Source of the DNA: a virus
Length of the DNA: 24,876 bases
Reading direction: 5' to 3' (one strand)
Virus record (IMG/VR): IMGVR_UViG_3300031766_000060
Location: 1-24,876 of that record
Within the stretch, counting starts at the first letter, position 1. Every line of letters begins with the position of its first letter. The notes under the pieces are model-generated. The model did not search any database and was not told where the DNA came from. It saw nothing but the letters and a program-made list of their open reading frames with translations. A program made the translations under genes and the position numbers. This document shows, piece after piece, positions 2,044-24,273 of this stretch.

Positions 2044-4980
2044 TTAGATCGGGGAAAACATCTCGAAGCCTGAGCGAACTATATCTCTGGGCAAACCTTT
2101 ATCCATAAAGTTCCCATGTGTTGCTTCTTTTACATACGGGACATCGTACAGGGTGGGAACACGCTTCTCGCTATCCATCAACTGAAGCACTGCGTTTATC
2201 TGGTCTACCGTAAAGAAGTTTAGCCCATCAACCACACCTCTATTTACACTAGACATGGCCTCGGTAAGAACATCGCCAGTGTCTTTCAAGAAACCGTCCT
2301 CTTGCGGAGCGTTGGTAGCACTTTGTGCTTGATCTGAAAGCAAAGCTCCACCCCCCACAGTCAAAGCCCCCTGCGAAAATAGTGGCAAGCCTTTCTTTAC
2401 ACGATCCACTAGTTCTGGGGTTACGTCTATTGAGTGAGCGCTGTCGGTCATTGTCTTTTCTACCAGCTCTGCTAGACGTTGTTTAGATTCCGCTGTCTGA
2501 GGCCATGTTTGAGATACAGCTTTGTACTCTTGCGCTTCTTCAGGAGTTAGATTTTTTGTATTAGCTTGCATTCTATCGAATTTAGTTTGACCGACAGGCT
2601 GATTGCCCAACTTACCCAGCCTGTTGCGGAACGTCTTATCGTACAGTGGTATCAAACCTTCAGTACCCATGTATCGGTCTGATTGTTGTTTACCAGTGGT
2701 TAAAGCCAGCTTGTCATACCCACCTTCTGCCGCTTCTATGATTGCTCTTTTAAGGGCTAGGTCATACCACGTGGTTTTGTCCGTATTTTTAAACGGTGCA
2801 TCTGGAACTTGGTCAGGCTGTTTCGTAATAAGCTCATCCTGAATCGAAAGAAGGTTACCGTGTCTCGCGCCAGCATCATCTAACTGAGCTTTCAGGCTCT
2901 TACCGACATTTGTTTCCATTAATTGTTTGTATAAATCCCAATCTGGTTCGTCAGCGCTGGGATCAAAGCCGTTCGCTTCAACAAATTCTCTTCGAGCTTG
3001 CTGCGCCTTCTCGACAGCGTTGGTGGATTCATCGATTTCTTTTTCTAACTTGTCCATCGCCTTCGGGTCGAAGTAACCATCTTCTTTGCCGAACTTATGC
3101 CAATCGGATTGCAGCTCCTCTATTAATAGAACATTGCTGCCGTCAGTGTCTTTCCGATCAACCATACGGAGGTGCGTTAAGATGTTCGGATGGTCAAAGT
3201 GGTCTGGGTTTACAAACTCTCGTGTCTCATCGCCAAAACTGTCTAGCTGATCCCACACCGCCATCATCTCATCATCTAACTCTGCTTGTTGTTCCCAGAG
3301 TTCGTCTTGACGCGCTTTAAGCTCATCCCCTACTAACATCGGGTTGTCAGTTAATTGATCACGGTCAATGGCATTTCGAGCATTAACTATGTCGTGACGC
3401 ATACCCATAAGTTCATCATATTTGCTAGACACCTCTTTAGCCGCATCTGCCCTATCGTTGGGTAGCGTCATTAGAAGCTCACGATAATTACTACCGCTGT
3501 ATCCTCCACCTAGCGTGAATTCACCAAACTTGGCGTTTCCTACGTTCTCCTGCCGGAAAACGTCTTCGATGTAAGTTAGAGCGCCTGACCTTTCACCAGC
3601 GGTTCTAGCATCATGATAAAGCTCATGCCCTTTATGGAAGTTGTCTTTTGCCCAATCAAGTATCTCATCCGCAGATAGTTGAGGAGTATCGCCTAGCAAA
3701 ATCTCTTTGATCTTGATCTGATTGCTGTTGATAAAGTCCTGAACTTCTCCGGTCGTAATGTCGGTGCGATCACCGAAATGATCCTTGAAGCCAATCGCGT
3801 CTAGCTCGTTTGGTTTAGCACCACCCTTGGTGAGATCGTTATAGAAGGCTTGTGCGTTAGCAGGTTTGCTTCGAGACAGGGAATTTGCAGCTTTCACCGC
3901 TGCACTGAACAGGCCAGCGTCAGCTTCTGGAGATGCCAACATGCCCCCAGCAGCGCCAGCGGTCATCATATAAGGGAGGAAGCTGTTAACTTTCACACCC
4001 GCAGCTTGCAGACGTTTAAGCATCTTGTCGTCAATGACACCCGTATACGGTTTCATCTCTAACGCTCTTCGAGCGTCATGGACAGATGCCCGTCCATCCA
4101 TCAACTCTGGGATCAAGTCTATGACTGTGGCGTTTGTATCTAAACGCCCCAACCCCTCACCCGCAATAGCAGATGGGTATGTGGGATTACCACCGTCAGG
4201 TATGACACCGCGCTCGACATCCATGATGCCGACATTTTGAAAGCCTAAGTCTTGAGCATTTAACTGAGGTACGTCAGTAACAGATATACGCGCTTGAGGT
4301 AGGCTGAGTCCCCCTTGGTCGCGGTATTTCTTATCCATTAAATCGATCACTGCTTTTCTAACACGGTCTTTTTGCTGACCATACTGCGCCACACTTCTTG
4401 GATCATCGACACCAAGCCAATCAGGGATCAGCTTCTTTATATCTGCGTCCATAGCGCGTTTAGTTGTTTTTGGCATATTCGCGGAGTTATACACAAGCAT
4501 GGTCTGACCCGTCTTGTGCGCGAAGTCGCCACCGGAGGGAGACATCCTCCAGTTCATCATTACAGGGTCAACACCACCCGCATCTTTCTTGGCTTGTTTG
4601 CCAGCCGCCACCATCTTAGGCGTAACACTCTTCGCAGATGCCCAAAGCTCTTCACCGTTCTCAAGCATGTAGCCCTGACCGCCTGTTAGGTTTACAGGCT
4701 GCGCCAGTTCAACATCGCCAATCCCTTCAAGAACCGCACCAGCTCTAGTTCGGTCAGACATAGTCGTAACAAAGGGTCGGCCTTCTAGATCTTGTAACGC
4801 TACGCGAGGAGCATCTTGAGTTCCCAAGTCTGTCACTTGAGGTGTCAACACCTCATCAGCCTTCCGTGGTGTTGATCCACCTCGCGGTTTAAAAAACCTT
4901 GGGTCGATGTTTTCTCGTATGTAAGTTCTAGCTTCTCTTCCAGCATCAAGAGCCGCCTTCACCATTTTCACAGAACCCAT
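2044..4980 (-). CDS. Large polyvalent-type ejection protein (978 aa)
   Basis: This is the last and longest gene of the virion block. The N-terminal third (about residues 120-280) contains a SGGDFAHKTG motif and a later LSLPQARISVTD segment, which recur in my memory of large phage virion proteins. A short Gly/Ala-rich hydrophobic stretch follows near 330-365. The second half has a GSNYRELLMTLP motif, a PNILTHLRMVDRKDTDG segment running into IEELQSDWH, and TTWYDLALKRAIIEAA. This second module is typical of phage polyvalent proteins, which are injected with the DNA and may carry enzymatic or anti-host domains. The C-terminus has another Gly/Ala patch. The biochemical activity is unknown. It follows the 150-aa gene after six bases. 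Confidence 0.7.
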   Translation of the reverse strand: MGSVKMVKAALDAGREARTYIRENIDPRFFKPRGGSTPRKADEVLTPQVTDLGTQDAPRVALQDLEGRPFVTTMSDRTRAGAVLEGIGDVELAQPVNLTGGQGYMLENGEELWASAKSVTPKMVAAGKQAKKDAGGVDPVMMNWRMSPSGGDFAHKTGQTMLVYNSANMPKTTKRAMDADIKKLIPDWLGVDDPRSVAQYGQQKDRVRKAVIDLMDKKYRDQGGLSLPQARISVTDVPQLNAQDLGFQNVGIMDVERGVIPDGGNPTYPSAIAGEGLGRLDTNATVIDLIPELMDGRASVHDARRALEMKPYTGVIDDKMLKRLQAAGVKVNSFLPYMMTAGAAGGMLASPEADAGLFSAAVKAANSLSRSKPANAQAFYNDLTKGGAKPNELDAIGFKDHFGDRTDITTGEVQDFINSNQIKIKEILLGDTPQLSADEILDWAKDNFHKGHELYHDARTAGERSGALTYIEDVFRQENVGNAKFGEFTLGGGYSGSNYRELLMTLPNDRADAAKEVSSKYDELMGMRHDIVNARNAIDRDQLTDNPMLVGDELKARQDELWEQQAELDDEMMAVWDQLDSFGDETREFVNPDHFDHPNILTHLRMVDRKDTDGSNVLLIEELQSDWHKFGKEDGYFDPKAMDKLEKEIDESTNAVEKAQQARREFVEANGFDPSADEPDWDLYKQLMETNVGKSLKAQLDDAGARHGNLLSIQDELITKQPDQVPDAPFKNTDKTTWYDLALKRAIIEAAEGGYDKLALTTGKQQSDRYMGTEGLIPLYDKTFRNRLGKLGNQPVGQTKFDRMQANTKNLTPEEAQEYKAVSQTWPQTAESKQRLAELVEKTMTDSAHSIDVTPELVDRVKKGLPLFSQGALTVGGGALLSDQAQSATNAPQEDGFLKDTGDVLTEAMSSVNRGVVDGLNFFTVDQINAVLQLMDSEKRVPTLYDVPYVKEATHGNFMDKGLPRDIVRSGFEMFSPI

Positions 4981-4986
4981 AAACTA

Positions 4987-5439
4987 CTACCCGTAAAAGT
5001 TAAATGGTTGATATGGCGACCGCTGTCTGTTTTGTAAAAAGGCTTGCTTGTCCTCTACGTCCCGATAGTTCTGCTGCATCTTTTGGAACTCTTCTAAGTC
5101 CTCAAGTGTTGCAGGTTCTTCACTGTCGTCTAACGCACCGACAAGGCTAGAAGTTGGGTCGTACATCGCAGGGATCGATGGCATCTCTGCGGCTTGGGCG
5201 TTGTGTTGTAACAAGCCAGCGGCAGGGTTGTTTGCACCAGCCGCTGCATTCGTCTGCGCCATCATTGCTGACGAGTCGATCATAGGAGCTGCTTGAGCTG
5301 GTGGGCGCTGGGAGATGAAGTCGATCACGTTTGTGCCGTACTTTTTGTTCATCTCATCAATCTTGAGATCAAGGGGGCTGGGTGTGGTTCTGCCCATCTT
5401 TTTCGACAGGTCAGAAAAGAAATTTAGAAACGCGCTCAT
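4987..5439 (-). CDS. Hypothetical virion/ejection-block protein (150 aa)
   Basis: I do not recognise this protein. It starts with an amphipathic helix (SAFLNFFSDLSKKMG), continues through an Ala/Asn/Met-rich middle, an acidic helix around residues 105-130 (EEPATLEDLEEFQKM) and ends in RSPYQPFNFYG. The ending resembles SPFNSLNFYNQ near the C-terminus of the 471-aa protein of the same block, which hints at a shared docking motif. Its position between two large ejection-type proteins suggests a minor internal virion component or chaperone. It starts with ATG five bases after the stop of the preceding gene. Confidence 0.6.
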   Translation of the reverse strand: MSAFLNFFSDLSKKMGRTTPSPLDLKIDEMNKKYGTNVIDFISQRPPAQAAPMIDSSAMMAQTNAAAGANNPAAGLLQHNAQAAEMPSIPAMYDPTSSLVGALDDSEEPATLEDLEEFQKMQQNYRDVEDKQAFLQNRQRSPYQPFNFYG

Positions 5440-5444
5440 GTTAT

Positions 5445-7619
5445 TTACTCTGCTAGTTGGGAGTTATCTTCAAAGACTGATTGGTCTATCACCTGACGCA
5501 TGACTGCGTTCAATTTGATGTGGCTGTCGTCAAACTTCATGATGTAATCGACAGGCGTTCGACCACTCTTCAGTGCTTCTTTCATTGTCTTTTCAGCGGC
5601 ATACGCTTCTACGCCAGACAAAGGACTTAACACTGGAGTCACCTTCAGCATTCTGAAAAGGCTATCGATCCACGTGTACGCTGAACCGGAATAGTTAACA
5701 GCGCCATCAGGCTTTTTAGTGGCTTTGCCGACAGCAACCTCAAAGGCTCTTAGCTTTTGATATTGCTCTGGTGACAAGACTTTCTTTAGAGCAGCATCGT
5801 TTTTCTTGATCGCTGTCGTGAGCTTAGACCCACTGAAGAAACCTACACCGCTCTTGCTTTGCTGGTTTGGGTTTACGGCCTTGTCGAAGATATCTTTTAA
5901 CGTGAAGGTTCTGATGTCAGCGATAGCTGCTTCATCACCCCTTTCCGCTAACTGCTTGATAACGCGCTCTGCGTTCTCAGGCGATCTCATTATCGCCTTC
6001 ATAATCTCAGAAGGATCTTTTAGCGGTGTTTTGGTGTTAGGTTTGAAGCCCGTTATCTCTTGAAGCACATCCTTTGCCGACCAGAGGTCGCGGTAGGCTC
6101 TGTTGGCTTGTCTAGCCGCCCGTGCTTGCTTCAAGAACTGATCAGCAGCTTTACCACCGCCACCGGCCTTCATTGCTTCTGCTAACTGTGCGTCTGCGTT
6201 TTCTTCAATCGCACTCTTTATTTGCGAGAGGATGTAGTTACCACGGTCATCACCCTGCTGCCAAAGACTGTTGAGATATTTAATGAAATCTTCACTGTTG
6301 CTTACGCCCAATCGCTGAGTGTCCATGTCCGGTATGTTGAAGGGCATATCAGTCTTGAAATCTTCTGGATCTAGAACTCCAGATCGTGCCAGCTTTGTGC
6401 CGATGTCTTTCAGCAGCGCACCGTTGGTGTTCATGTGGTCACGCGCCATCTGATAGAAGACTTCGGATATAGCATCAGCGGAGAGAGGGATATCTATGTT
6501 GTTGTTCTGTGCAAACTGCTTTGCTTCGTCATACAGAGCCTTGTAGTTGGCCTTGTCTGTCGCCTTGAACCCTTCAAAAGTTTCCTTCAACACAGTGCCT
6601 ATCTGTTCAAGATCAGCCACCCGTGTACCACCAGCCTCATCTGCCATCGCCAAGGCTGCGTTATTGATGTCTATATTTTGCTCATCCCTGAAATCTCTCA
6701 TGCGGTCGCCAGCTTCTTTGGATTGACGCGCTGCCGCCTCTTCAGCAGCGATCTGCTCAAAGTCCTGCGTGTACTGACCCTTAGAGAGTTTGAAGCCGAA
6801 TTCAGTTTCCATTGCTTCTTGGATCGCAGCGTCTACATCTTCAGCGTTGCTGATGCTTTTCAGAATTTGCTGGGTGTCAGGTTTTAGATTGTCAAAGTCA
6901 TAACCCGCTTGTTCCAGTGCAGCTCTAATTTCAGATTCAACTTGATCGTTCGCACGGGGGTTTAGCGCACCGAAGGGAATTCTTTTTAGTGTTTCCTTTA
7001 ATACGATGGACACAGGTTCAGCCGCAGCACCAGCTACAGCGCCCATCATCGCGTTTGAAGTTCTTGTCTCGTCTGAGAAAGGTATCTCGACAGCGCCCTC
7101 AATCGCGCCAGACCCCATAGAGGTAGCCATACGACCAAGGAAACCTAACCCGCCTAAGATTGGAGCTTTAGATAGTCCAATTGCCAAAGGAGCAGCAGCT
7201 AAAACACCGCCCGTCATTCGTCCCCCCATGTTGAGGTAGGGCGACTCTTGCGCCAGTGCGTTGTTCACCATTTCAGTTCGCCTTGCGCCTTCCTGCGTGG
7301 CCTCGCTGTCGGTGAACGGGAGCTTGTCCCAGATGCCAAGCCCAACCTTACCCGTCTGAACACCAGCGCTGGCTAAGAACTGCGTTAAAGGGTTTTGGTC
7401 TTGCACAGCTTGATTGATGTCTTGCTGCTCTAGATATCTACCATAAGCCTCAATCTGAGCCATCTGCTGCTGTGGTGAGAGCTGCTGCTGTTGAGTCTTT
7501 TGCGCTAAGTCAGCCGCGACATCATCAACGTAGGCTCTCTGCTGTTGTGCAGTCATAGCATCAAAGCCTTGCGGCTTTTTGATTTTGGTTGTTCCGTTGA
7601 TTAACAGATTATCTGACAT
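5445..7619 (-). CDS. Internal virion / DNA-ejection protein (724 aa)
   Basis: I choose the start MSDNLLINGT at 7619. The ATG lies one base after the previous stop (TGATATG) and is preceded by GGTGGAG. The longer reading from 7709 would overlap the previous gene by 89 bases without need. Residues 22-75 are Gln-rich and helical. Residues about 131-206 form a Gly/Ala-rich run of hydrophobic segments (for example LGGLGFLGRMATSMGSGAIE) such as membrane-active ejection proteins carry. The rest is long, charged and helical. Size, composition and place fit the class of proteins released into the cell envelope during genome delivery. No enzymatic motif was recognised. Confidence 0.65.
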   Translation of the reverse strand: MSDNLLINGTTKIKKPQGFDAMTAQQQRAYVDDVAADLAQKTQQQQLSPQQQMAQIEAYGRYLEQQDINQAVQDQNPLTQFLASAGVQTGKVGLGIWDKLPFTDSEATQEGARRTEMVNNALAQESPYLNMGGRMTGGVLAAAPLAIGLSKAPILGGLGFLGRMATSMGSGAIEGAVEIPFSDETRTSNAMMGAVAGAAAEPVSIVLKETLKRIPFGALNPRANDQVESEIRAALEQAGYDFDNLKPDTQQILKSISNAEDVDAAIQEAMETEFGFKLSKGQYTQDFEQIAAEEAAARQSKEAGDRMRDFRDEQNIDINNAALAMADEAGGTRVADLEQIGTVLKETFEGFKATDKANYKALYDEAKQFAQNNNIDIPLSADAISEVFYQMARDHMNTNGALLKDIGTKLARSGVLDPEDFKTDMPFNIPDMDTQRLGVSNSEDFIKYLNSLWQQGDDRGNYILSQIKSAIEENADAQLAEAMKAGGGGKAADQFLKQARAARQANRAYRDLWSAKDVLQEITGFKPNTKTPLKDPSEIMKAIMRSPENAERVIKQLAERGDEAAIADIRTFTLKDIFDKAVNPNQQSKSGVGFFSGSKLTTAIKKNDAALKKVLSPEQYQKLRAFEVAVGKATKKPDGAVNYSGSAYTWIDSLFRMLKVTPVLSPLSGVEAYAAEKTMKEALKSGRTPVDYIMKFDDSHIKLNAVMRQVIDQSVFEDNSQLAE

Positions 7620-14947: not shown

Positions 14948-15484
14948 CTAGACATAATAAAAGTAAGGATCTTTCTCGTATTCCGCTGCCAACAGAGGGG
15001 CTGTACCGTTAAATGCTTCATTCTCACTAAGCCTCCTTGGTAAGAACTTAAACATCGTCACCGCCACCCGCACCGTGGGGATGCTATGCACAGCGTGAGG
15101 TACTGCCGAATTGTGGTAATACCACCTGTTTTTTTTGTACTTCACTCTTATTATCTCTTCACTTTGATAGCTAGGTTTAAACTCCGTAACACCAGATTCG
15201 CCATGAAGTAGACAGTTGTATGACCAATCTCGCAGTAAATCGATATGAAAATCCGCTTTCTCAGTGTTGAAACGCTGAAGCGTAACCATCCAACCCTCGT
15301 CTATGTCGATAGGCACATTTTGGCTAACCCACTCTCTCAGATACCACGGGGCTTTCAGTAACGAAAATTGTGGTTTTCCTTTAGCGGGGACTGCTCTATC
15401 TGCAGACAAACCCCACTCAGTCAAAGACGAAACTAGAGCGTCTGGTAGAGAAGGCCATTCCTTCTCTGCGTAAAATTCACTCAC
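14948..15484 (-). CDS. 2OG-Fe(II) oxygenase-like protein (178 aa)
   Basis: The core runs from WMVTLQRFNTEKADFHIDLL to VRVAVTMFKFLP. His80 and Asp82 (HID), a distal His (His130 or His133 in VPHAVHSIP) and Arg139 fit the HxD...H...R arrangement of the double-stranded beta-helix dioxygenases that hydroxylate proteins or small molecules. Spacing between HxD and the distal His is about 50 residues, normal for the fold. The best start is GTG at 15484, overlapping the sulfotransferase stop by eight bases; no clear ribosome site is visible. TTG codons at 15496 and 15526 are alternatives. It ends the modification cassette. The substrate is unknown. Confidence 0.55.
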   Translation of the reverse strand: MSEFYAEKEWPSLPDALVSSLTEWGLSADRAVPAKGKPQFSLLKAPWYLREWVSQNVPIDIDEGWMVTLQRFNTEKADFHIDLLRDWSYNCLLHGESGVTEFKPSYQSEEIIRVKYKKNRWYYHNSAVPHAVHSIPTVRVAVTMFKFLPRRLSENEAFNGTAPLLAAEYEKDPYFYYV

Positions 15485-16160
15485 TAAAGAAATCAACTGA
15501 CTCGTAAAAGGCTGTTTCTTCAGCAAAGTACGCTTTCATCTTTTCGTAGCAATCTGAGGGTAGCCAACTTTCTACTGGCGCTTTGAACTCATCTGGTGTG
15601 CCATCTGGGTTCATATTTATGTGAGGGAATGTGCCTTTATAATCCGACCCAAGTTTTTCACTGAGTATTCGGTTCGTAACGGCTTCAAAGTCCTCCCATC
15701 GGTACGCATCTACAACTTGCTTATCACCGTGAAAAAAGAAGTTTTTATAGTGAAACGGCTTGTAGTTTGGTTGACTGAGTTTGCTGTCTTTACCAGCGAA
15801 AGGTCTTGGGACTTCCGATCTCGCTAAACGAACGATCAAATCAAGTGGATCTATATCTTGACGCATCATCCCCATGCTTCTAGCTAAAAAGATACTAGAC
15901 ACCCACCTTTCCAGAGGCTCACGCACAAATCCGAAGGCTGTGTACTCAGACAAACCCTCATCTGTAATTAATCCGTTCTCCACCAACGTGGAGGGGCGCA
16001 TATGATAATTATCAATATGGTTGGGGTGATCTGGGGATAGCGAGTAAACGACATCGGTGGGATCTGCGATGTCCGAACTCTTTATCGCCTCTTGAACAGA
16101 GTTTGATGCTGTTCTAGGTACGGCAATAAAGAGCAATTTATGTTTCTTTGATAAATACAT
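15477..16160 (-). CDS. Sulfotransferase family protein (227 aa)
   Basis: Residues 10-22 (LFIAVPRTASNSV) form the 5'-phosphosulfate-binding loop with the PRTASNS variant common in carbohydrate sulfotransferases. Residues 76-91 (FGFVREPLERWVSSIF) form the 3'-phosphate-binding motif with Arg80 and Ser88. A His-rich segment at 45-55 may supply the catalytic base. The product should transfer sulfate from PAPS to a hydroxyl, most often on a sugar. The length is complete for a small cytosolic enzyme, with no membrane anchor. The start MYLSKKHKLL has AGGAG seven bases upstream and overlaps the previous stop as TGATG. An extension to 16304 runs over the previous gene and is rejected. Confidence 0.82.
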   Translation of the reverse strand: MYLSKKHKLLFIAVPRTASNSVQEAIKSSDIADPTDVVYSLSPDHPNHIDNYHMRPSTLVENGLITDEGLSEYTAFGFVREPLERWVSSIFLARSMGMMRQDIDPLDLIVRLARSEVPRPFAGKDSKLSQPNYKPFHYKNFFFHGDKQVVDAYRWEDFEAVTNRILSEKLGSDYKGTFPHINMNPDGTPDEFKAPVESWLPSDCYEKMKAYFAEETAFYESVDFFSE

Positions 16161-16738
16161 CAGGGTGCTCCTGTGGTGTCTGCATAGCCGTTTTGGACTA
16201 GCGCTTTGGGTGTGTGTTTTCGGATTAAGGCTTCTTGCTTTGATCCAACAGTCTGACCTTTCCAACGAGCTGCAACAGTTGTTGGCTTTAGCCCGTCCTT
16301 CCATTTCTGAAACGCAAGCAGACCAAACCCTTGGTCTAACCCCCCTTTCTCTTTGAAATTAATTCCCGCCCCATGCGTCTGCCCCTGAAGCAGCGTGTTA
16401 GATGCCTCCTCATGACTCGTCTGCATAACTTTTCCCTGACTAGAAGCATAAGTGTCTAGGCGCATCTTTATGACCTCAACATCTGGATGCCCGTGTTGCG
16501 GTAAATTTGGAGACGGGTGTATCAGGTACAGCTCAACTTGGAACTGCCCACTCCTAAACAGACAAAAAGAAGTAGCATCATCGCTCAGATACACAGTCTC
16601 CACGGGGGGCGCTATTGGCGATCCGTTGTCGCACCACCACTTGGCAAACTCACGCACGGAAGCCCACTCAGGGATATCTACACCCTGAAGCGGATTAGGC
16701 CGAAGAAACCCAGAGGTGCTTTTACTCAGCTTTATCAT
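16160..16738 (-). CDS. Cupin-like hypothetical protein (192 aa)
   Basis: The middle of the protein reads as a series of short beta strands: FCLFRSGQFQVELYLIHPSP, then LPQHGHPDVEVIKMRL, and later THGAGINFKEKGG and FGLLAFQKW. A HxHP pair followed by VEVI and a later His is reminiscent of the cupin metal-binding motif, but no full cupin signature is visible. The assignment is a weak fold guess. The gene follows the 119-aa gene after two bases and overlaps the sulfotransferase start, so it belongs to the same transcript. A role in sensing or modifying a sugar or peptide is possible. Confidence 0.5.
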   Translation of the reverse strand: MIKLSKSTSGFLRPNPLQGVDIPEWASVREFAKWWCDNGSPIAPPVETVYLSDDATSFCLFRSGQFQVELYLIHPSPNLPQHGHPDVEVIKMRLDTYASSQGKVMQTSHEEASNTLLQGQTHGAGINFKEKGGLDQGFGLLAFQKWKDGLKPTTVAARWKGQTVGSKQEALIRKHTPKALVQNGYADTTGAP

Positions 16739-16740
16739 GT

Positions 16741-17100
16741 TTAAGCCTCTGGTAGTAAAGCAACGTCCTTGTAGGTGTAGGAAGCGTCTTGGATCTGTTT
16801 CTCTAAGTTTGCTGCGTGTCCACCTTCCAGCAATTGATCAAGAAAAGCCGTCCCGCCTTCAGCGTCTAATGCCCACTGCAAAATTTGTGTCTGAGTGACG
16901 TTTTCGTATGGCGTAAATGTATCGGCAGAAATTGAGTCCGTATCAAGGTAGCTTTCCACCCCGCCAGTGCTTTTTATATCGGGGTTGTTCGTGTCGAAAA
17001 ACTCAACAACCCAACTTACTTTTTTAACTACGTCTTGATGGGGGTCTTGGTTATCGATAGCCCAAACATTTTGTAGGCTCATTGCGTAATCGATGTTCAT
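16741..17100 (-). CDS. Hypothetical phage protein (119 aa), small tail-region family
   Basis: The N-terminus contains SLQNVWAIDNQDP and VKKVSWVVEFFDTN, then a Tyr/Ser linker, FTPYENVTQTQILQWALDAEG and a C-terminal amphipathic helix. This plan (VWAI, then a beta hairpin, then FTPYxxLTxxQVLxW) is familiar from small proteins encoded near fibres in several phages. Their function is not known to me; a fibre-associated or assembly role would fit. It overlaps the GT-A-like gene as ATGA and is co-transcribed with the modification cassette. Confidence 0.5.
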   Translation of the reverse strand: MNIDYAMSLQNVWAIDNQDPHQDVVKKVSWVVEFFDTNNPDIKSTGGVESYLDTDSISADTFTPYENVTQTQILQWALDAEGGTAFLDQLLEGGHAANLEKQIQDASYTYKDVALLPEA

Positions 17101-17822
17101 GTTGTAACTCCTAATGGAAGATTTTTAGCTAACCCCTTTCGGAGTTTTGCTGCACGTTCTAATGTTTTATTGGCTACCGACTCGACCCTTTGTTTGTCCA
17201 TCTCTGGCATCCCGTCAGTCAGTCCTATAGCCGCCTCTAATCTATATGCGAACATTTCATTTCCGTTTGCCGTACCCCGTTCATACACTGGGATGTAATT
17301 CATAACGGATGCCTGTTCGCCTAGCATTCCGTAGTCCATTGCGACCTTTGCACTAATCGCCTTAGCCACAATCGGATCGCATTTGTGGTTCATATGTCGC
17401 GGCATACGCAATCGTTTTACCCGCGCCAAAACACCCGCATCTGTGTCTGGCGTTCTCACCCAGCGCTTTGGATTTATGCAAAAACACGACAAGTCCATAG
17501 ACTTTTCGTTGAGCTTGCTACCGATCAACCCATACACATGCTTGTTCGCCCTGTTGTCTGTAAACACACCGTCCCTGCTTACACATATGTCGTACTGCTC
17601 AAGTAGCTCACGGCTTGGCACATCTCCGTCTTTGATGTCTAAAATGACCCCGCTCTTCACCACCAAACAAAGATCGTTAGCGTGTCGCAGTGCGGTCGGA
17701 ATGAACCCGTCCTTAAACGGCACTACTTTGTAATCCCACTCAGGCATGTTTTGTCGAATGCTATTAACCGTAAGCGCGGTTAACTGATTGCACTCGACCA
17801 CTAAAATTTCTAGGCGCAACAT
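17097..17822 (-). CDS. Glycosyltransferase-like protein, possibly GT-A fold (241 aa)
   Basis: The N-terminus LRLEILVVECNQLTALTVNS, then MPEWDYKVVPFKDG, resembles the first Rossmann-like strands of GT-A enzymes. NDLCLVVKSGVILDI lies where these enzymes usually carry a DxD metal motif, but here the position reads VKSG, so catalysis by the usual metal-dependent route is doubtful. YDICVSRDGVFTDN and the later CFCINPKRW fit an acceptor-side domain. I rate this a divergent glycosyltransferase-like protein. AGGAGG stands three bases before the ATG. The start lies 59 bases inside the end of the GT-B-like gene, an unusually long overlap for this genome. Confidence 0.45.
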   Translation of the reverse strand: MLRLEILVVECNQLTALTVNSIRQNMPEWDYKVVPFKDGFIPTALRHANDLCLVVKSGVILDIKDGDVPSRELLEQYDICVSRDGVFTDNRANKHVYGLIGSKLNEKSMDLSCFCINPKRWVRTPDTDAGVLARVKRLRMPRHMNHKCDPIVAKAISAKVAMDYGMLGEQASVMNYIPVYERGTANGNEMFAYRLEAAIGLTDGMPEMDKQRVESVANKTLERAAKLRKGLAKNLPLGVTT

Positions 17823-18666
17823 GTTCCTCCTGACCGTATTGGATGAAGAACCGATTTATCCGTTCCACGGGAGAATCGACACTTACAGGGATAAGTCCTG
17901 AATCTTTACAGGACAAAATCGCCTTCAGTCGTTCGGGGTTTAGCTCACCCCTATCCAATAAGGCTCTGTAGATCGCACTGTATGTACACCACTGGTCTTC
18001 TTTACCGAACCTATGAACGGTCTTGCCGCTGGCTAACCCCGCGATCCCCATTTCGGAGTTGTCGCAGCAACCAATGATCTGGGCGCTCTCTAACAGCTCA
18101 TGACCAGATGCTTTCTTCTCTATTACTGCGTCCCCATATTTGTGTACTAAGTGCTCATACGCTGATGCGGCTGTGAGGGGGTGGCACTTGAGTTTCGCTC
18201 CTTGAGCTACCGCCTCATCCACTTTCTCCCAATCTGTAACCTTGTCGAGAATGTTCGTGCCAGCGAGAAAAATGACGTATTCGTGTGCCAACCCTTTTTT
18301 TCTCAGTCGGTACTTATCTCCACAGTTTTTCGCTATCTTGGCGAAAAGTTGCTCACCTTCTTCGGTAATGTCTGTCTCAGCAGCCCTTTTCATAGCGTCA
18401 GTCGCCCACATGCTGCTTGCGACTCGCAGATACAGGAATTGAGTTAACAGGTCTGTGTACACGTACCCGTGGATTCGTTGATCGTTTGGGAAGTCATACC
18501 AAACGTCATATTCGACTTTCGTATCGTTGATCCACTTCTCTGGCACTAGAGACTTCAGACGCATTAGTTGGTCGTTGTCTCTACTACGTAAGACGTTTCC
18601 AGACTTAAAAAAGTGGGCAACTGGGTTACCCAACTCGTCATTGTCAGCTAACTTGTTCAAGCTCAT
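17764..18666 (-). CDS. GT-B-like glycosyltransferase, capsule-polysaccharide type (300 aa)
   Basis: The C-terminal half carries KLKCHP (158-163), HELLESAQIIGCCDNSEMG (189-207) and GLASGKTVHRFG. This is the K-x-HP ... E-L-L ... S-x-x-G-x-x-A-L-x-x-G-K-x-V pattern of capsule polysaccharide and polyol-phosphate transferases. The N-terminal half is shorter than in bacterial members, so the acceptor domain may be minimal. It would use a nucleotide sugar in the cytoplasm. AAGG stands seven bases before the ATG. The first 23 bases overlap the end of the coiled-coil gene. The acceptor is unknown; candidates are the adjacent fibre proteins or host glycans. Confidence 0.6.
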   Translation of the reverse strand: MSLNKLADNDELGNPVAHFFKSGNVLRSRDNDQLMRLKSLVPEKWINDTKVEYDVWYDFPNDQRIHGYVYTDLLTQFLYLRVASSMWATDAMKRAAETDITEEGEQLFAKIAKNCGDKYRLRKKGLAHEYVIFLAGTNILDKVTDWEKVDEAVAQGAKLKCHPLTAASAYEHLVHKYGDAVIEKKASGHELLESAQIIGCCDNSEMGIAGLASGKTVHRFGKEDQWCTYSAIYRALLDRGELNPERLKAILSCKDSGLIPVSVDSPVERINRFFIQYGQEEHVAPRNFSGRVQSVNRAYG

Positions 18667-18784
18667 CTCTTAACCTTAGAACTTCGTCTTCGAGTTCCGC
18701 GATTCGATCCTCTGTTTCGCTGAAGTGCTCCATAATTATTTCCAGAGCGTTCTCCAGCTTCCCGTTGATTTCTCTAATATCCAT
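18644..18784 (-). CDS. Small coiled-coil protein (46 aa)
   Basis: This short gene starts with ATG at 18784 as a TAATG overlap with the stop of the Thr/Ser repeat gene and has GGAGG five bases upstream. The protein is one acidic amphipathic helix with heptad-spaced Leu and Ile (ALEIIMEHFSETEDRIAELE followed by DEVLRLRDELEQV), a strong coiled coil. It ends with TGA 23 bases inside the GT-B-like gene. A fibre chaperone, a trimerisation partner or an adaptor for the modifying enzymes would all fit. No homologue is recognised. Confidence 0.65.
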   Translation of the reverse strand: MDIREINGKLENALEIIMEHFSETEDRIAELEDEVLRLRDELEQVS

Positions 18785-20064
18785 TAGTCCTCCGTCCACT
18801 GAGAGCCATCCCAGTACCGACCGTTGTGTGCGCTTCCGCTGGTGACTTCAGTCTGATTTCCAGTAGATGTCAGGCGTTCGTAGACTACGGTTGATGTGTC
18901 GCGGTTCGTGGTCGTTGATCGGCTTGTGCCAGTTGCATGGCTAGTAGATCGCGTAGTGTCCGTGTTAAACGCAGTAGTCGTGCTGTGACTTGTGCCATGC
19001 GATGTTCCAAACGTAGTGGTCGTGTTAAACGATGTCGTTGTGCTGTGACTTGTTCCAAACGTAGTCGTGTAAGACGTACTCGTAGACTTGGACGTACCGA
19101 ACGTAGTCGTAGTGTTGAACGATGTAGTCGTTGATTTAGACGTTCCACGCGAGGTGTTGTAGTAAGTAGTCCAACTAGTAGTCGTGGACTTACTAGTGCC
19201 ACGCGAGGTGTTGTAGTACGTAGTCCAGCTCGTAGTCTTAGTAGTGCTTCGACTTGTTCCGCGAGACGTTCCACGGGAGTGGCTGCTACTCGTTTGGCGG
19301 TAGATTCTGTGATACGAACCATAACCATCTGATGAATGCAGTGTACTTCTGTAGTAAGTCCAACCACTGACCGTCTGTGAAGTGCCAGAAGCACTACTGG
19401 TAATAGCGGAGTTGCCCCATCTAATTACGTGACCGTTGCTGCTAGCAGCGTTGTGCCACCAATAGGTTTGGTTTGCGGTGTAGTAGCTTCCAGATGAAGG
19501 CTGACGGGTCGTAGATGACCAGTAAGTAGTCCAGCTAGTCGTCCAACTAGTGCTTTTGGCTGTTCCGCGAGATGTTCCACGTGACGTACCGTAAGTAGTA
19601 GTCCAGCTCGTAGTCGTTGATTTACTTGTGCCGCGACTAGTCCCGTAGGTGGTAGTCCAACTTGTAGTCGTGCTCTTGCTTGTCCCTGTTGCACGGCTAG
19701 TGTTAAACGAAGTAGTAGTGCTGTGAGAAGTCCCACGGCTAGTGTTATACGAGGTGGTAGTGGATCTCGATGTTCCAGTAGCACGGCTCGTGTTGTACGA
19801 GGTGGTATAGCTAGTCGTAGTAGCGCGAGACGTACCTGTGGCGAACGTAGTTGTGTACGTGGTCGTGGTGTTAAACGAGGTGGTCGTGGAGAATGCTGTC
19901 GAGGTGTCGCGGCTGGTCGTATAAACCGCATTCCAGACAGTGCCTAACGTACCGTTGTTGTTAGCTACAACATAGTTAACGCCATAAAGCGTCCCCTGAT
20001 CTCCCTTTACAAAGATCTGGGTGGGTTCTTTGAGAGTACCGCTGTCGTTAACTTTAATAGTCAT
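18784..20064 (-). CDS. Thr/Ser-rich repeat fibre protein (426 aa)
   Basis: Residues 1-48 are an anchor-like domain (LKEPTQIFVKGDQGTLYGVN). Residues 49-187 and 262-392 are low-complexity tracts built from units such as TSRG, TSKS, TTTSW and TTTFG. Nearly every bulky residue (Arg, Lys, His, Phe, Tyr, Trp) falls on an even position, 4 or 6 apart, while odd positions hold Ser, Thr, Gly, Ala, Asn or Asp. The register is the same on both sides of a non-repetitive central domain (188-261) rich in Trp and Tyr. This implies a long two-faced beta structure. The C-terminus ends in GRYWDGSQWTED. It follows the Ala/Ser fibre by nine bases. Role: probably a virion fibre. Confidence 0.7.
   Translation of the reverse strand: MTIKVNDSGTLKEPTQIFVKGDQGTLYGVNYVVANNNGTLGTVWNAVYTTSRDTSTAFSTTTSFNTTTTYTTTFATGTSRATTTSYTTSYNTSRATGTSRSTTTSYNTSRGTSHSTTTSFNTSRATGTSKSTTTSWTTTYGTSRGTSKSTTTSWTTTYGTSRGTSRGTAKSTSWTTSWTTYWSSTTRQPSSGSYYTANQTYWWHNAASSNGHVIRWGNSAITSSASGTSQTVSGWTYYRSTLHSSDGYGSYHRIYRQTSSSHSRGTSRGTSRSTTKTTSWTTYYNTSRGTSKSTTTSWTTYYNTSRGTSKSTTTSFNTTTTFGTSKSTSTSYTTTFGTSHSTTTSFNTTTTFGTSHGTSHSTTTAFNTDTTRSTSHATGTSRSTTTNRDTSTVVYERLTSTGNQTEVTSGSAHNGRYWDGSQWTED
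18885..19930 (-). repeat. Degenerate repeats coding the Thr/Ser tracts
   Basis: The DNA shows many near-repeats of 12, 18 and 54 bp. For example CCACGCGAGGTGTTGTAGTA occurs at 19145 and again at 19199, 54 bp (18 codons) apart. Repeats continue on both sides of the non-repetitive stretch that codes the central domain (about 19282-19503). Confidence 0.75.
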
Positions 20065-20073
20065 AGCGGCCTC

Positions 20074-21435
20074 TTAAACTACATACCAGACATGTCCGTT
20101 AGCAAAGCCACTGGCACTCGTTGGTGCTGTCGTGACAACAGATTGTGTTCCAACATTAGACGGTAACGAATAGACAGTGTCGGTACTCGTTATAGTGAAG
20201 TTGGGGTAAGTACCAGAGACGCTAGTAGCTCCCGCACCTGCCAACGTGACAGTCTGATCAGGGGCAGTGTTCGCAAATTCAGATCCAGTTAGGGATAGAC
20301 CCGAACCCGCTGTGTACGTTGTGCCTAATCCCGTAACGGTGAAGTTAGGGTATGTACCTGAAACAGTAGTTGTACCCGCGCCAGTGATTGAAACCGTCTG
20401 ATCAGCTTGTGCTGCGGTGGCGTATGCACTTGCGTCCGTTGTCGCGGCAGTGCCAAGACCTAAATTAGTTCTGGCTGTGCTTACGCTGTTTAGATCAGAC
20501 AAATTGCCAGTTGCTATCAACGCACCAGATAGAGAAGCGTATGCGTTTAGCCATGCGCTACCGTCATAGACTTTCATCTCATCTGTCGTGGTATTGAAGT
20601 AAAGAGTTCCTGCAACCAGCGCGTTTGAATCGTTATCAGTGGACGGATTTGACGCTTTTTGTCCCAAATACCGATCATCGAATGAATCAAACGCAGCCAA
20701 CGCAGCATCTCTTGCCGCTTCTGCGGCTGACTGAGCGGTTGTGGCTGACGATGCGCTGCTTGATGCGTTAGATGCCGATGTAGAGGCTTCACCAGCCTTA
20801 GTCGTGGCGGTCGCTGCCGATGTAGATGCTGAAGAGGCGCTGGATGCGGCATTCGTAGCTTGCGTTGCGGCATCTGTTGCCGAAGTAGCGGCTTCTCCCG
20901 CTTTCGTTGTCGCAGTTGCAGCCGAACCAGACGCAGACGAAGCACTAGAAGCTGAATTTGTTTGAGAAGTCGATGCAGAGTTCGCGCTTGAGGCTGCATT
21001 GGACTCAGAAGATGCCGCATTGGTGGCAGATGTGGCCGCTTCAGATGCTTTTGTAGAAGCTGTCGATGCAGACGTAGAGGCTTCATTAGCTTTTGTTGTC
21101 GCAGTGGCCGCAGACGTAGTGGCAGACGAAGCACTTGAGGCTGAACCTGTCGCTGACGAAGCCGAATTTACCTCTGCTGTCTCTGCTGCGTTTTTAGAAA
21201 GCAGTGCAGCAGCCGCACTCGCTGTTGCTGACGCAGCGTCACCAGAAATTGATGCTGCTGTGCTGGCAGCGTTGGTGGCACTCGCTGCAGCGTTAGTCTC
21301 AGAAGTAGCAGCAGCCGCTGCGGAAGTGGCAGCGTTAGCCTCACTTTGTGCCGCTGCATTTTTAGACGCTAGTGCATCTGCTTCGGCAGTTTCTTGAGTC
21401 GTTGTACTACTTATATTCGCGTAAAAACTAGCCAT
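20074..21435 (-). CDS. Ala/Ser/Thr-rich tail fibre protein (453 aa)
   Basis: Residues 1-10 (MASFYANISS) may be the attachment end. Residues 15-245 are an almost continuous run of Ala, Ser, Thr and Asn (units such as ATKANEASTSAS and TNAASSESNAASS), a pattern that forms long trimeric coiled-coil shafts in phage fibres. FDDRYLGQKASNPSTDND then marks a neck, followed by LVAGTLYFNTTTDEMKVYDG, a beta domain frequent in fibres. The C-terminal third has two copies of a module with DQTVxxxGAGxTxVSGTYPNFT. The final ASGFANGHVWYVV is a short tip. It follows the adaptor gene after three bases. Confidence 0.75.
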   Translation of the reverse strand: MASFYANISSTTTQETAEADALASKNAAAQSEANAATSAAAAATSETNAAASATNAASTAASISGDAASATASAAAALLSKNAAETAEVNSASSATGSASSASSATTSAATATTKANEASTSASTASTKASEAATSATNAASSESNAASSANSASTSQTNSASSASSASGSAATATTKAGEAATSATDAATQATNAASSASSASTSAATATTKAGEASTSASNASSSASSATTAQSAAEAARDAALAAFDSFDDRYLGQKASNPSTDNDSNALVAGTLYFNTTTDEMKVYDGSAWLNAYASLSGALIATGNLSDLNSVSTARTNLGLGTAATTDASAYATAAQADQTVSITGAGTTTVSGTYPNFTVTGLGTTYTAGSGLSLTGSEFANTAPDQTVTLAGAGATSVSGTYPNFTITSTDTVYSLPSNVGTQSVVTTAPTSASGFANGHVWYVV

Positions 21436-21438
21436 CCA

Positions 21439-22038
21439 TTAATACCCATTAGCAATTTGTACTGTAGATCCCGACCCTTCGGAATCGCGTGAGTGCTGCA
21501 CGATGCGGTTGTAGGCTGTTTGGTAATTCATCTCCCACTGGCTGCTGTCTGAGCCTAAGAAGTTAGCCGCTTCTACAAGTGAGCCGTACAGGTAAAGCTC
21601 TGGCACGGTGGACAAGAGCACATTTGTTGGTGCTGAATCTGACAAAGAAGCTACCTGTTGGTAGTAGATCATCTCTAATTTGTCAGTTGCCCCCATAGTT
21701 GGTTTGGGGAAAAAGGTGAGCTTCCCAACTTCTCTCGCAAAGTAGATGGGTATGCCCGAATAGGGTTCGTATGACTTGATCTCTGCTAGGCTTCTTCGTT
21801 CTAGCGGTTTGTCGTTAAAGAAGACATCTTTTGCTTCTAAAAAATCAACGGGGATTGTTGTGTATCCCTCAGTATCCAGAGAGATGAGAACCTTTTTTTC
21901 AAGGGTCGGTAAACGAACCTCATGAGCTATTCTCGATTCAGCTAGAGAAATAAAGTCAGGTATCTCGTTGGCTATATCTTCTCTGTTTAACCAGTTAGCG
22001 ATTGAGGCTTTGAGGCCACTGTAGGTGTTCAAGCTCAT
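21439..22038 (-). CDS. Head-tail adaptor protein, SU10-adaptor type (199 aa)
   Basis: The opening YSGLKASIANWLNREDIANE leads into IPDFISLAESRIAHEVRLP, the helical start of the adaptor family that attaches to the portal ring in short-tailed phages. A beta hairpin (ISLDTEGYTTIPVDFLEAKD), ERRSLAEIKSYE and FPKPTMGATDKLEMIYYQQV follow. The C-terminal helical part (LYLYGSLVEAANFLGSDSS) is also typical. Length fits the family. It overlaps the previous gene as ATGA and precedes the fibre genes; its tail partner, the nozzle-like 518-aa protein, is encoded about 9 kb further on. Confidence 0.75.
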   Translation of the reverse strand: MSLNTYSGLKASIANWLNREDIANEIPDFISLAESRIAHEVRLPTLEKKVLISLDTEGYTTIPVDFLEAKDVFFNDKPLERRSLAEIKSYEPYSGIPIYFAREVGKLTFFPKPTMGATDKLEMIYYQQVASLSDSAPTNVLLSTVPELYLYGSLVEAANFLGSDSSQWEMNYQTAYNRIVQHSRDSEGSGSTVQIANGY

Positions 22039-22388: not shown

Positions 22389-23288
22389 TTAAGCAGTTAG
22401 TGCTTCAATAAGGCCAGAGGCTTTACTGTTCTCACAAACAAGAGTGAGTTCTGTAAGCATTTGACGCTTCTCAGAGTCACCAGTTTTTGCAAGGTTGATG
22501 GTCTGCACAGGACGCAGTACGGCACGTGACCAATACTCTGTGTCCAAAACTAGAGCCGTGTTATTTTGGAGAAATCTATTAGGGACAATAGAAACTTGAC
22601 CGAACGGACTCACGTATAAATCGACCGCTTGCACGATAGTCTTACCAGTGCCGAAATCACGCTCACGACCAGCAGAAGCTGCAAAGTTCGCAACTGTTAC
22701 TGAGTGAGATGGAGTGACCTGAACCTGATTAGGATCGCCACCAGCTTCGTACACATCTTGCAATGTGCCTAAAAGCAGAGTTTCGGTAAACGCACGGTTA
22801 GAACCAGCAGTGCTAGTAGTGCTTGCATCGATCTGGTTCTGGGCAGACTTCAACTGACGAGCAGTTGTGCCGTTACCAGCAGTACCAGCTTGAAGAGCAC
22901 CCACAAAACTATGTTCTATGTCTCTACGTAATTCTTTTCCTTTCATCGCGATGTTCATCGCTAGATCGCTAGACCTACCATACGTTCCAACGGCTTCTGA
23001 AGTGCCAGAGGACTGAACCACTTTGGTGAAGATCTGAGTGTTCGCAGATTTCATGGTAGTGGTGTTGTTCTCTGCTGCTCCAGCGTCTGCTCCTTCTAAG
23101 GCAGCATTGGTCGCCACTGCCGCCAACTCAGATTCTTGCCACTGGTGTAAAGTAGCTGAAGTAGAAGTCGTGCCGATTGAAGAGGTAAAGGGAGTTAGGG
23201 TGGGCGAAATATCGTAGATTATGTCTTCGATCATTTCTTTTTTACCTACCTGATCGTAGGTTTTTAAGGTATTTGCAACTGTTGGCAT
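22389..23288 (-). CDS. Major capsid protein, SU10-like (299 aa)
   Basis: The opening VANTLKTYDQVGKKEMIEDI continues as IYDISPTLTPFTSSIG, the hallmark start of the SU10 major capsid family (formerly DUF5309), an HK97-fold capsid protein. A WQESELA segment and the EGADAGAAENNTTTMKSANT segment (E-loop region) follow. MKGKELRRDIEHSFVGALQA is the long spine-helix, and ETLLLGTLQDVYEAGGDPNQ the later A-domain helix. Length is normal. AGGAA lies upstream of the ATG. It sits directly after the scaffold gene and before a strong terminator, as expected for the most abundant structural protein. Confidence 0.88.
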   Translation of the reverse strand: MPTVANTLKTYDQVGKKEMIEDIIYDISPTLTPFTSSIGTTSTSATLHQWQESELAAVATNAALEGADAGAAENNTTTMKSANTQIFTKVVQSSGTSEAVGTYGRSSDLAMNIAMKGKELRRDIEHSFVGALQAGTAGNGTTARQLKSAQNQIDASTTSTAGSNRAFTETLLLGTLQDVYEAGGDPNQVQVTPSHSVTVANFAASAGRERDFGTGKTIVQAVDLYVSPFGQVSIVPNRFLQNNTALVLDTEYWSRAVLRPVQTINLAKTGDSEKRQMLTELTLVCENSKASGLIEALTA

Positions 23289-23304: not shown

Positions 23305-24273
23305 TTAAGTACGATTTAAGAGGGCTTGAACAGCGTCCTCCATCGAACCTGACTTCTTGAGACGTTCACGCGACTTGCGATATTTCTCTTGTTTGCCTAA
23401 GTCCTTTGGATCTGCTTTCTTACCCGACAAAGTTTTCTTCGGTGACGACTTAACTTTCTTCTTCGTCTCCGTTTTTGCCTGATCAAATTGCATCGCCTTG
23501 AACATTGCCGTGATAGAGCGGTGATCTGTAATACTGTTGAACTCTTCTTGAGTTACTCCTAAAGAATTCTTGGCGTACTCGCCTACTGCGTAGTAGACAT
23601 CATTGCTCCAATTGGGAATCGTTGACTTCAGAACAGTCAGGCTCTCTTTTGCGCGATCTTTCATCGCAGCCTGTTGCTGGGCTTCAGACCGTTGCATGTG
23701 TTCTTCTGCTTGAGACTTTATAAAGTTGTAAGTCTGTAGCGTCTGATCATGCATCGCCTTGGCTTGCTTATATTGGTCAGGGTTATCTACTGCTGCCTGT
23801 TCCCAGTTCACGCCTTCAAAGCGTGAAAGGTCTGCTCCAGCAGCAGTCAAGAGGGCGCTCAATGTGGATTCGTAGGACTGCGTTTGTTCTTCAGCAGCCT
23901 TACGCTGTTCGGCAACAGCTTGCGTCTTCTTGGTGTAATCGGATTGGCGCATATACCCCAGCTTGATTTCTTCAACGGAGACTTGTTCTCCATCAATTTC
24001 AATCACACCTTCGGTAATGACATCAGGCTCGTCTTCAGCTTCTTCCTCAGACTCTTCGGTTGGGTCTTCTTCGACCTCCTCTGATTCTTCGGTTTCTTCT
24101 TCAGCGAGTTCTTCAGCTTCTTCGATCACTTCATCGGTAGACTCATCTACCTCTTGCTCGTCTTCGGGCTGTTCGGTTTGTTCCTCTTCGGACTCCAGTA
24201 GTGCCACTAGTCGTGCTTGTACATCTTGATCTGCGTTAACAGAGTCCACTGGCGTGGTTTGCTCTTCACTCAT
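23305..24273 (-). CDS. Capsid assembly scaffolding protein (322 aa)
   Basis: The first 90 residues are extremely acidic (long runs of Glu with Asp and Ser). They are followed by VITEGVIEIDGEQVSVEEIK and GYMRQSDYTKKTQ, the small conserved beta/helical module of phage scaffolds. Residues 120-220 are a helical, Gln/Glu-rich rod. The C-terminus is strongly basic (KKKVKSSPKKTLSGKK, later KYRKSRERLKKSG) and should bind the capsid protein. Its place immediately before the capsid gene supports the role. It is expected to be lost from the mature head. GGAG lies nine bases before the start. Confidence 0.82.
   Translation of the reverse strand: MSEEQTTPVDSVNADQDVQARLVALLESEEEQTEQPEDEQEVDESTDEVIEEAEELAEEETEESEEVEEDPTEESEEEAEDEPDVITEGVIEIDGEQVSVEEIKLGYMRQSDYTKKTQAVAEQRKAAEEQTQSYESTLSALLTAAGADLSRFEGVNWEQAAVDNPDQYKQAKAMHDQTLQTYNFIKSQAEEHMQRSEAQQQAAMKDRAKESLTVLKSTIPNWSNDVYYAVGEYAKNSLGVTQEEFNSITDHRSITAMFKAMQFDQAKTETKKKVKSSPKKTLSGKKADPKDLGKQEKYRKSRERLKKSGSMEDAVQALLNRT

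Follow-up and report, generated by a model that had tools for sequence, protein, structure and literature searches.

The window analysed here is the whole stretch of 24,876 nucleotides that makes up positions 1 to 24,876 of the IMG/VR virus record IMGVR_UViG_3300031766_000060. The open reading frame at 18784-20064, already recognised in the first-pass annotation, lies on the minus strand, begins with ATG and encodes a protein of 426 amino acids (P0001), referred to below as the fibre. In the direction of transcription, the gene order is scaffolding protein, major capsid protein, virion protein, tail-fibre-like protein, fibre, a 46-residue open reading frame and the genes termed p300 and p241. 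The major capsid protein is 37-43% identical to its best matches listed, which include PaP3-like Pseudomonas phages and the methylophage Venkman. The features are as follows.

23305-24273, scaffolding protein, before the fibre gene in the direction of transcription
22389-23288, major capsid protein, before the fibre gene in the direction of transcription
21439-22038, virion protein, before the fibre gene in the direction of transcription
20074-21435, Ala/Ser/Thr-rich tail-fibre-like protein, directly before the fibre gene in the direction of transcription
18784-20064, minus strand, fibre, 426 residues
19912-20064, minus strand, N-terminal anchor of the fibre, residues 1-51 (MTIKVNDSGTLKEPTQIFVK...TVWNAVY), conserved among homologues
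19519-19911, minus strand, arm 1 (residues 52-182), a Thr/Ser repeat whose bulky residues fall on even positions, recognised by parity and mirror pairing
19282-19518, minus strand, tip domain at the predicted fold-back, residues 183-261, non-repetitive and fast evolving, judged from pN/pS and AF2 pLDDT
18889-19281, minus strand, arm 2 (residues 262-392), which mirrors arm 1 in its aromatic-basic pairs
18787-18888, minus strand, C-terminal anchor, residues 393-426 (VVYERLTSTGNQTEV...RYWDGSQWTED), the most conserved stretch of the family
18644-18784, minus strand, coiled-coil-like open reading frame of 46 residues (MDIREINGKLENALEIIMEHFSETEDRIAELEDEVLRLRDELEQVS) that overlaps the stop codon of the fibre gene and has counterparts in most related loci
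17764-18666, minus strand, p300 (phrog_26179), KpsC/KpsS-like, with KCHP and NSEMGIAGLASGK motifs, characterised by linkage, PF05159 and hhalign
17097-17822, minus strand, p241, conserved partner of p300 by linkage
15477-16304, minus strand, galactose-3-O-sulfotransferase-like gene (phrog_3347), near the cassette

Database searches placed the fibre in no described family. It shares with five divergent relatives the lack of any PHROG match; Pfam gave nothing above threshold for it, the DUF2510 match at its last residues (415-425) being short and sub-threshold; and a phmmer search against PDB chains returned two matches only, both to tail sheath proteins, with E values of 0.15-0.17. A weak NCBIfam match (NF033849, 'serine-rich protein') covers residues 49-391 with 18 bits against a cut-off of 650, and cellular Ser-rich proteins of this kind are possible further candidates for the mirror rule described below.

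The first-pass annotation had reported a strict odd/even register of the bulky residues (Arg, Lys, His, Phe, Tyr and Trp) in the two repeat stretches, and the count bears this out. Even positions are occupied by 28 of the 29 bulky residues in residues 52-182 (the exception is Y181) and by 28 of 30 in residues 262-388 (Y283 and Y301), which are exactly the three exceptions named earlier; Ser, Gly, Ala, Asn and Asp never stand on an even position in either stretch, and the bulky residues are nearly all spaced by 4 or 6. As none of 20,000 residue shuffles reaches the observed counts, parity is a rule and not a composition bias. The two sides of the middle domain keep one register, as had been claimed, because partner positions in the mirror relation sum to 446, an even number; the domain itself spans 79 residues (183-261) and not 74. 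Alternation is kept in every family of homologues examined, as T/S-rich stretches contain 7,429 bulky residues, of which 94% are in register, with nine register switches in total, and the loss of alternation that had been named as speaking against the rule was absent. The Thr, Ser and Arg codons of the fibre gene are mixed and the pN/pS of the arms is low (0.13-0.28); therefore, the parity rule acts on the protein. The corresponding values are 0.07-0.11 for the N- and C-terminal anchors together and 0.42-0.47 for the tip, an order that fits anchors forming a base, arms forming a shaft and a tip that recognises the host.

Homologues were collected by a scan of viral contigs, which gave 65 loci, and by a second scan with alignment, which gave 80, with further members from a genome scan and from a scan with the L066 protein. 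Complete members range from 314 to 1,783 residues and have the N- and C-terminal anchors in common, while the tip domain and the arm length vary. Arm lengths are near-equal in most homologues (833/833, 363/363, 323/323, 445/443 and 271/274), as measured with a heuristic that places the centre wrongly in a few of them. In view of these near-equal lengths, a relation of the form i + j = constant between the two arms was tested.

In P0001, residue m lies opposite residue 446-m. Between residues 58-182 and 264-388, 26 of the 27 bulky pairs consist of one aromatic and one basic residue, in a series that runs from F58:R388 at one end to W182:R264 at the other, K170:K276 being the sole non-complementary pair. 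The offset scan, which scored only bulky against non-bulky residues and was blind to the difference between aromatic and basic ones, found the best mirror offset relative to the anchors to be identical in 40 of the 41 distinct homologues with both anchors. At this shared offset, 25 representatives together have 1,149 cross-arm pairs in which both residues are bulky, and 1,137 of these (99.0%) are aromatic-basic, as against 21-75% at the other offsets tested (-30 to +40) and 588 +/- 17 pairs (maximum 643) when the aromatic and basic labels were permuted within proteins. Preferred pairs are Phe:Arg, Tyr:Lys and Tyr:His, with Trp facing Arg or Lys; His faces only Tyr. The commonest pair is Thr:Thr, which separates the aromatic-basic pairs, and small residues face small ones, with an enrichment of Ser:Asn. 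Mirror complementarity is a fact of these sequences.

The mirror score was 20-246 for nearly all complete members as against 4-16 for their dipeptide shuffles. Neighbouring tail-fibre open reading frames (L004 and L048) scored 4-5 without a comparable diagonal, and single-arm reading frames cut by contig ends (L029, L049 and L051) scored 9-15, near their own shuffles. In some members (L047, L053 and L041), roughly one bulky residue in two lacks a bulky partner, which counts against the fold-back reading given below. Long Thr-rich proteins of up to 1,722 residues (L060, L066 and L147) show mirror aromatic-basic pairing without the family anchors or p300; the regular units of L060 allow several axes to compete. 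In a 133-kb contig, the L062 protein (2052-5966) combines an N-terminal part matching virion structural proteins of the jumbo Pseudomonas phages Noxifer and PhiPA3 with a short mirror-paired zipper and a Hint/intein-like C-terminus. The fibre gene of L054 appears to lie in two overlapping frames (2324-3997 and 3735 onwards), through either faulty assembly or a genuine break in the frame.

When arm 1 and arm 2 were aligned independently between relatives, the insertions and deletions were found to pair up, with equal size and at mirrored distances from the base. Between L010 and L014, the paired changes (arm 1/arm 2) are +52 at 123/118, +32 at 175/173, +16 at 196/192, -4 at 226/225, -2 at 297/293 and +17/+16 at 319/312, the distances from the base agreeing within 7 residues. 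L030 and L033 differ by -52 and -40, each in both arms, and P0001 and L005 by -2 at 120/116; between L037 and L042, 40 residues are gained per arm, set 29 residues apart by the aligner, which is permissible with repeats. Such mirrored indels correspond to the compensatory changes seen in other paired systems. A tally of simple compensatory flips, made on arms cut by the mirror axis and with many poor alignments, supports no claim. Parity, mirror pairing, complementarity, matched arm lengths and mirrored indels are established at the level of the sequences. Their origin in the nucleic acid was considered and rejected in two forms. A hairpin in the mRNA or DNA is not the cause of the mirror symmetry, as the gene has no inverted repeats and Thr:Thr pairs are impossible from a reverse complement (ACN against NGT). 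Simple slippage of DNA repeats is contradicted by the mixed synonymous codons and the low pN/pS.

Structure prediction, proposed earlier as a check, gave a qualified answer. The full-length monomer (AF2, 21 sequences) was modelled with a pLDDT of 40, with strands only and no confident helix, the tip domain reaching about 65-78 and the arms only about 40, a low confidence that makes this model uninformative. A fragment covering residues 142-304 (20 sequences) had a mean pLDDT of 63.5, with the arms again of low confidence at about 50 and fragment residues 71-120, in the second half of the tip domain, mostly at 74-87. It contains predicted strands at 143-173 and 273-303; their boundaries add up to exactly 446, and this agreement with the predicted register is weakly supportive of the pairing. 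The PDB yielded no match to the full-length model and nothing significant to the tip fragment model in Foldseek (best E 2.8e-3); against viral predicted structures, Foldseek gave two matches with E < 0.001, one of them a Gp38-domain protein. Members with a minimal tip carry turn-like residues at the mirror axis, namely DGK in L018, L041, L044 and L045, K|G in the Vibrio phage proteins KVP40.0254 and QD01_260, and DPE-G in the L127-L144 group; therefore, a hairpin within one chain is favoured.

The fibre gene belongs to a conserved cassette. A coiled-coil-like reading frame of 30-62 residues follows it in most homologous loci where one was sought, and from this linkage the 46-residue product is a candidate gp57A-like fibre-assembly chaperone, a role for and against which the chances appear evenly balanced. 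p300 occurs in 133 of 148 related loci, and 61 fibre reading frames are followed by it at 109-211 nt; the anchored fibres without it (L015, L024 and L089) are at contig or locus ends, and the remaining ones (L060, L062, L066 and L147) have no family anchors. p241 occurs in 102 related loci, and its distance from the start of p300 hardly varies (823-853 nt). PF05159 (Capsule_synth) is matched by seven of 40 p300 members at E <= 1 (best E 8e-4), p300 itself remaining unmatched, and hhalign of p300 against PF05159 reading frames gave 85% with E 6e-6 in the part that contains the KxHP and NSxxG motifs. The p300 group has, like the KpsC/KpsS family, the KxHP and NSxxG...GK motifs, with a similarity that spans only about 131 columns. 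With this likeness, p300 is a candidate glycosyltransferase, and phrog_26179, annotated as of unknown function, could be re-annotated in this manner in KVP40, the Caulobacter phages and others. PDB profile searches with p300 and with p241 found nothing, and p241 has no Pfam match; a GT-A glycosyltransferase had been suspected from the p241 sequence and was dropped, being backed by no search. Sugar modification of the fibre by p300 and p241 is conceivable from their linkage, if somewhat doubtful. Together with p300, the sulfotransferase-like gene hints at modified glycans.

Fibre, p300 and p241 are also found in a 520-kb bacterial contig of the SAR92 clade (L067), beside HK97-type head genes of another kind, and therefore the cassette moves between phage types; the contig suggests a prophage of a SAR92 gammaproteobacterium. 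When annotated phages were searched by tblastn with the fibre or with its anchors, no match was obtained because low-complexity filtering masks the arms, and the cultured relatives were reached only via p300. The Vibrio phages KVP40 and QD01 encode miniature fibres, KVP40.0254 (197 residues) and QD01_260 (168 residues), each followed by a small coiled-coil-like reading frame and then by p300. Their mirror scores are 16 (shuffle maximum 9) and 19 (shuffle maximum 8), with 9 and 10 aromatic-basic pairs, respectively, and no like-with-like pairs. In the Caulobacter phages BL198 and Lullwater, a Thr-rich protein precedes p300 (BL198_gp046, mirror score 9 against 8 for shuffles; Lullwater_gp41, 10 against 9); their membership of the family is only probable. 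No Thr-rich zipper was seen beside p300 in the stretches read of DLP6, D479 and F86.

These observations very probably describe a fold-back antiparallel beta fibre zipped by an aromatic-basic code, with the anchors at its base and a fast-evolving tip. The conserved N- and C-terminal anchors would form the base, from which arm 1 would leave as one long beta strand, pass into the variable tip domain and return as arm 2, pairing with arm 1 in a single antiparallel register (m with 446-m). In P0001, the paired strands would extend for ~129 residues; with a rise of 0.33-0.34 nm for each residue, their length comes to roughly 43 nm. On one face, the ribbon would be lined with Thr:Thr pairs that give way, at intervals of 4 or 6 residues, to a cation-pi type pair between the strands (Phe:Arg, Tyr:Lys/His or Trp:Arg/Lys); the other face would carry small pairs (Ser, Thr, Ala, Gly and Asn). 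The code would reside in the order of the aromatic-basic orientations together with the 4/6 spacings, which would fix the register and keep even arms of about 830 residues from slipping. The case for beta structure in the arms is strong. A point against the model is that a lone two-stranded ribbon is expected to be unstable and would therefore need partners. Several hairpins are likely to be packed into one fibre. The protein is probably a virion fibre with an adhesive tip, and the tip is likely to be the host-recognition domain. The two-faced beta fibre of the first-pass annotation is thus supported as to the bulky residues on one face and their conserved alternation, and gives way as to a continuous single fibre, the arms being mirror-complementary; its ladder of aromatic and basic side chains was right in kind and missed the complementarity between the arms.

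That the pairing is antiparallel is almost certain; that it takes place within one chain is highly probable, if a little less so. The relation i + j = constant would be met equally by pairing between chains, either in an antiparallel homodimer with the tips in mid-rod and the anchors at both ends or in a domain-swapped oligomer, and sequence alone permits both arrangements. Such pairing appears unlikely, as the turn-like DGK, K|G and DPEG of the minimal members fall exactly at the axis, the large size, variability and rapid evolution of the tip domains are as expected of a distal tip, and the conservation of both anchors is explained most simply if both lie at one base. A hairpin in one chain is thus the likely arrangement, rather than a domain-swapped dimer.

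A beta-solenoid, a triple beta-spiral or a trimer of single extended beta strands, with the mirror signal as a by-product of short repeats, would draw on the strict alternation, which fits one strand of either fold, and on the accidental matches that low-complexity repeats yield. It is very improbable, since the spacings of bulky residues are irregular 4s and 6s with no repeat or rung of fixed length in P0001 (the tandem-repeat search found one array only, of 54 bases and 2.1 copies), other mirror offsets fall far short of the 99% aromatic-basic pairs, dipeptide shuffles score far below the real proteins, and equal arm lengths and mirrored indels are left unexplained; the single extended fibre and the solenoid were rejected on the mirror pairing and the mirrored indels. 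Least probable of all is a disordered mucin-like Ser/Thr linker serving only for O-glycosylation by p300/p241, which the Thr/Ser-rich composition and the linkage to a KpsC/KpsS-like protein might suggest, as disorder would not keep position-by-position partners over 130-830 residues. Glycosylation may occur on top of the fold-back structure.

It seems reasonably probable that the family embodies a natural folding code like strand complementarity, which sets a unique antiparallel register and gives single-chain hairpin fibres of up to ~275 nm, modified and assembled by a dedicated cassette and spread over podoviruses, siphovirus-like phages and T4-like Vibrio phages. No earlier description of an intra-protein pairing code or of giant hairpin fibres was found in the open-access literature searched, and no near one-to-one pairing rule on this scale is known from natural proteins. 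If true, the sequence would directly yield the contact map of proteins as large as about 1,780 residues, and protein design would gain a rule, taken from nature, for beta fibres that are very long and thin and locked in register. One gene could then provide some marine phages with a receptor-binding fibre several times the capsid length, tuned by paired indels. It is an evolutionary puzzle how an insertion of 2-52 residues in one arm acquires its match at the mirrored site hundreds of residues away, and the miniature versions in KVP40 and QD01 make the code testable with standard laboratory strains.

Among the closest known systems, the receptor-binding needle of the T4 long tail fibre protein gp37 is comparable in topology: each of its chains runs out, forms the tip and returns, giving a six-stranded antiparallel needle. 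It is a thin beta needle at the tip of the phage fibre, in which HxH motifs hold iron (PMC11705849), and is about 15 nm long (PMC3004832). Antiparallel strands folding back around a distal tip would be present here also, as deduced from sequence. However, the T4 needle is short and glued by iron and histidine, whereas the P0001 family would use aromatic-basic glue in arms of up to about 830 residues, with both chain ends forming conserved anchors. The HxH motif is absent from P0001, whose histidines are nowhere two apart, and no sequence relation to T4 gp37 was found by phmmer against PDB chains or by PHROG. The gp37-gp38 fibre of Salmonella phage S16 consists of a rod with a variable tip adhesin (PMC6851490). 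A likeness to gp38 is suggested by the match of the tip fragment model, itself of moderate confidence, to a Gp38-domain protein of Rhizobium phage RL2RES (BFVD, E 9.9e-4); S16 gp37, however, is an interdigitated triple beta-helix and its adhesin a separate polyglycine protein, while in P0001 the tip and the shaft belong to one chain. Tryptophan-zipper and cation-pi beta-hairpins are designed peptides in which an antiparallel hairpin is likewise stabilised by aromatic or aromatic-cation pairs across the strands. These designs contain few such pairs, whereas the present family reaches 136 aromatic-basic pairs in one natural chain (L063, the highest count).
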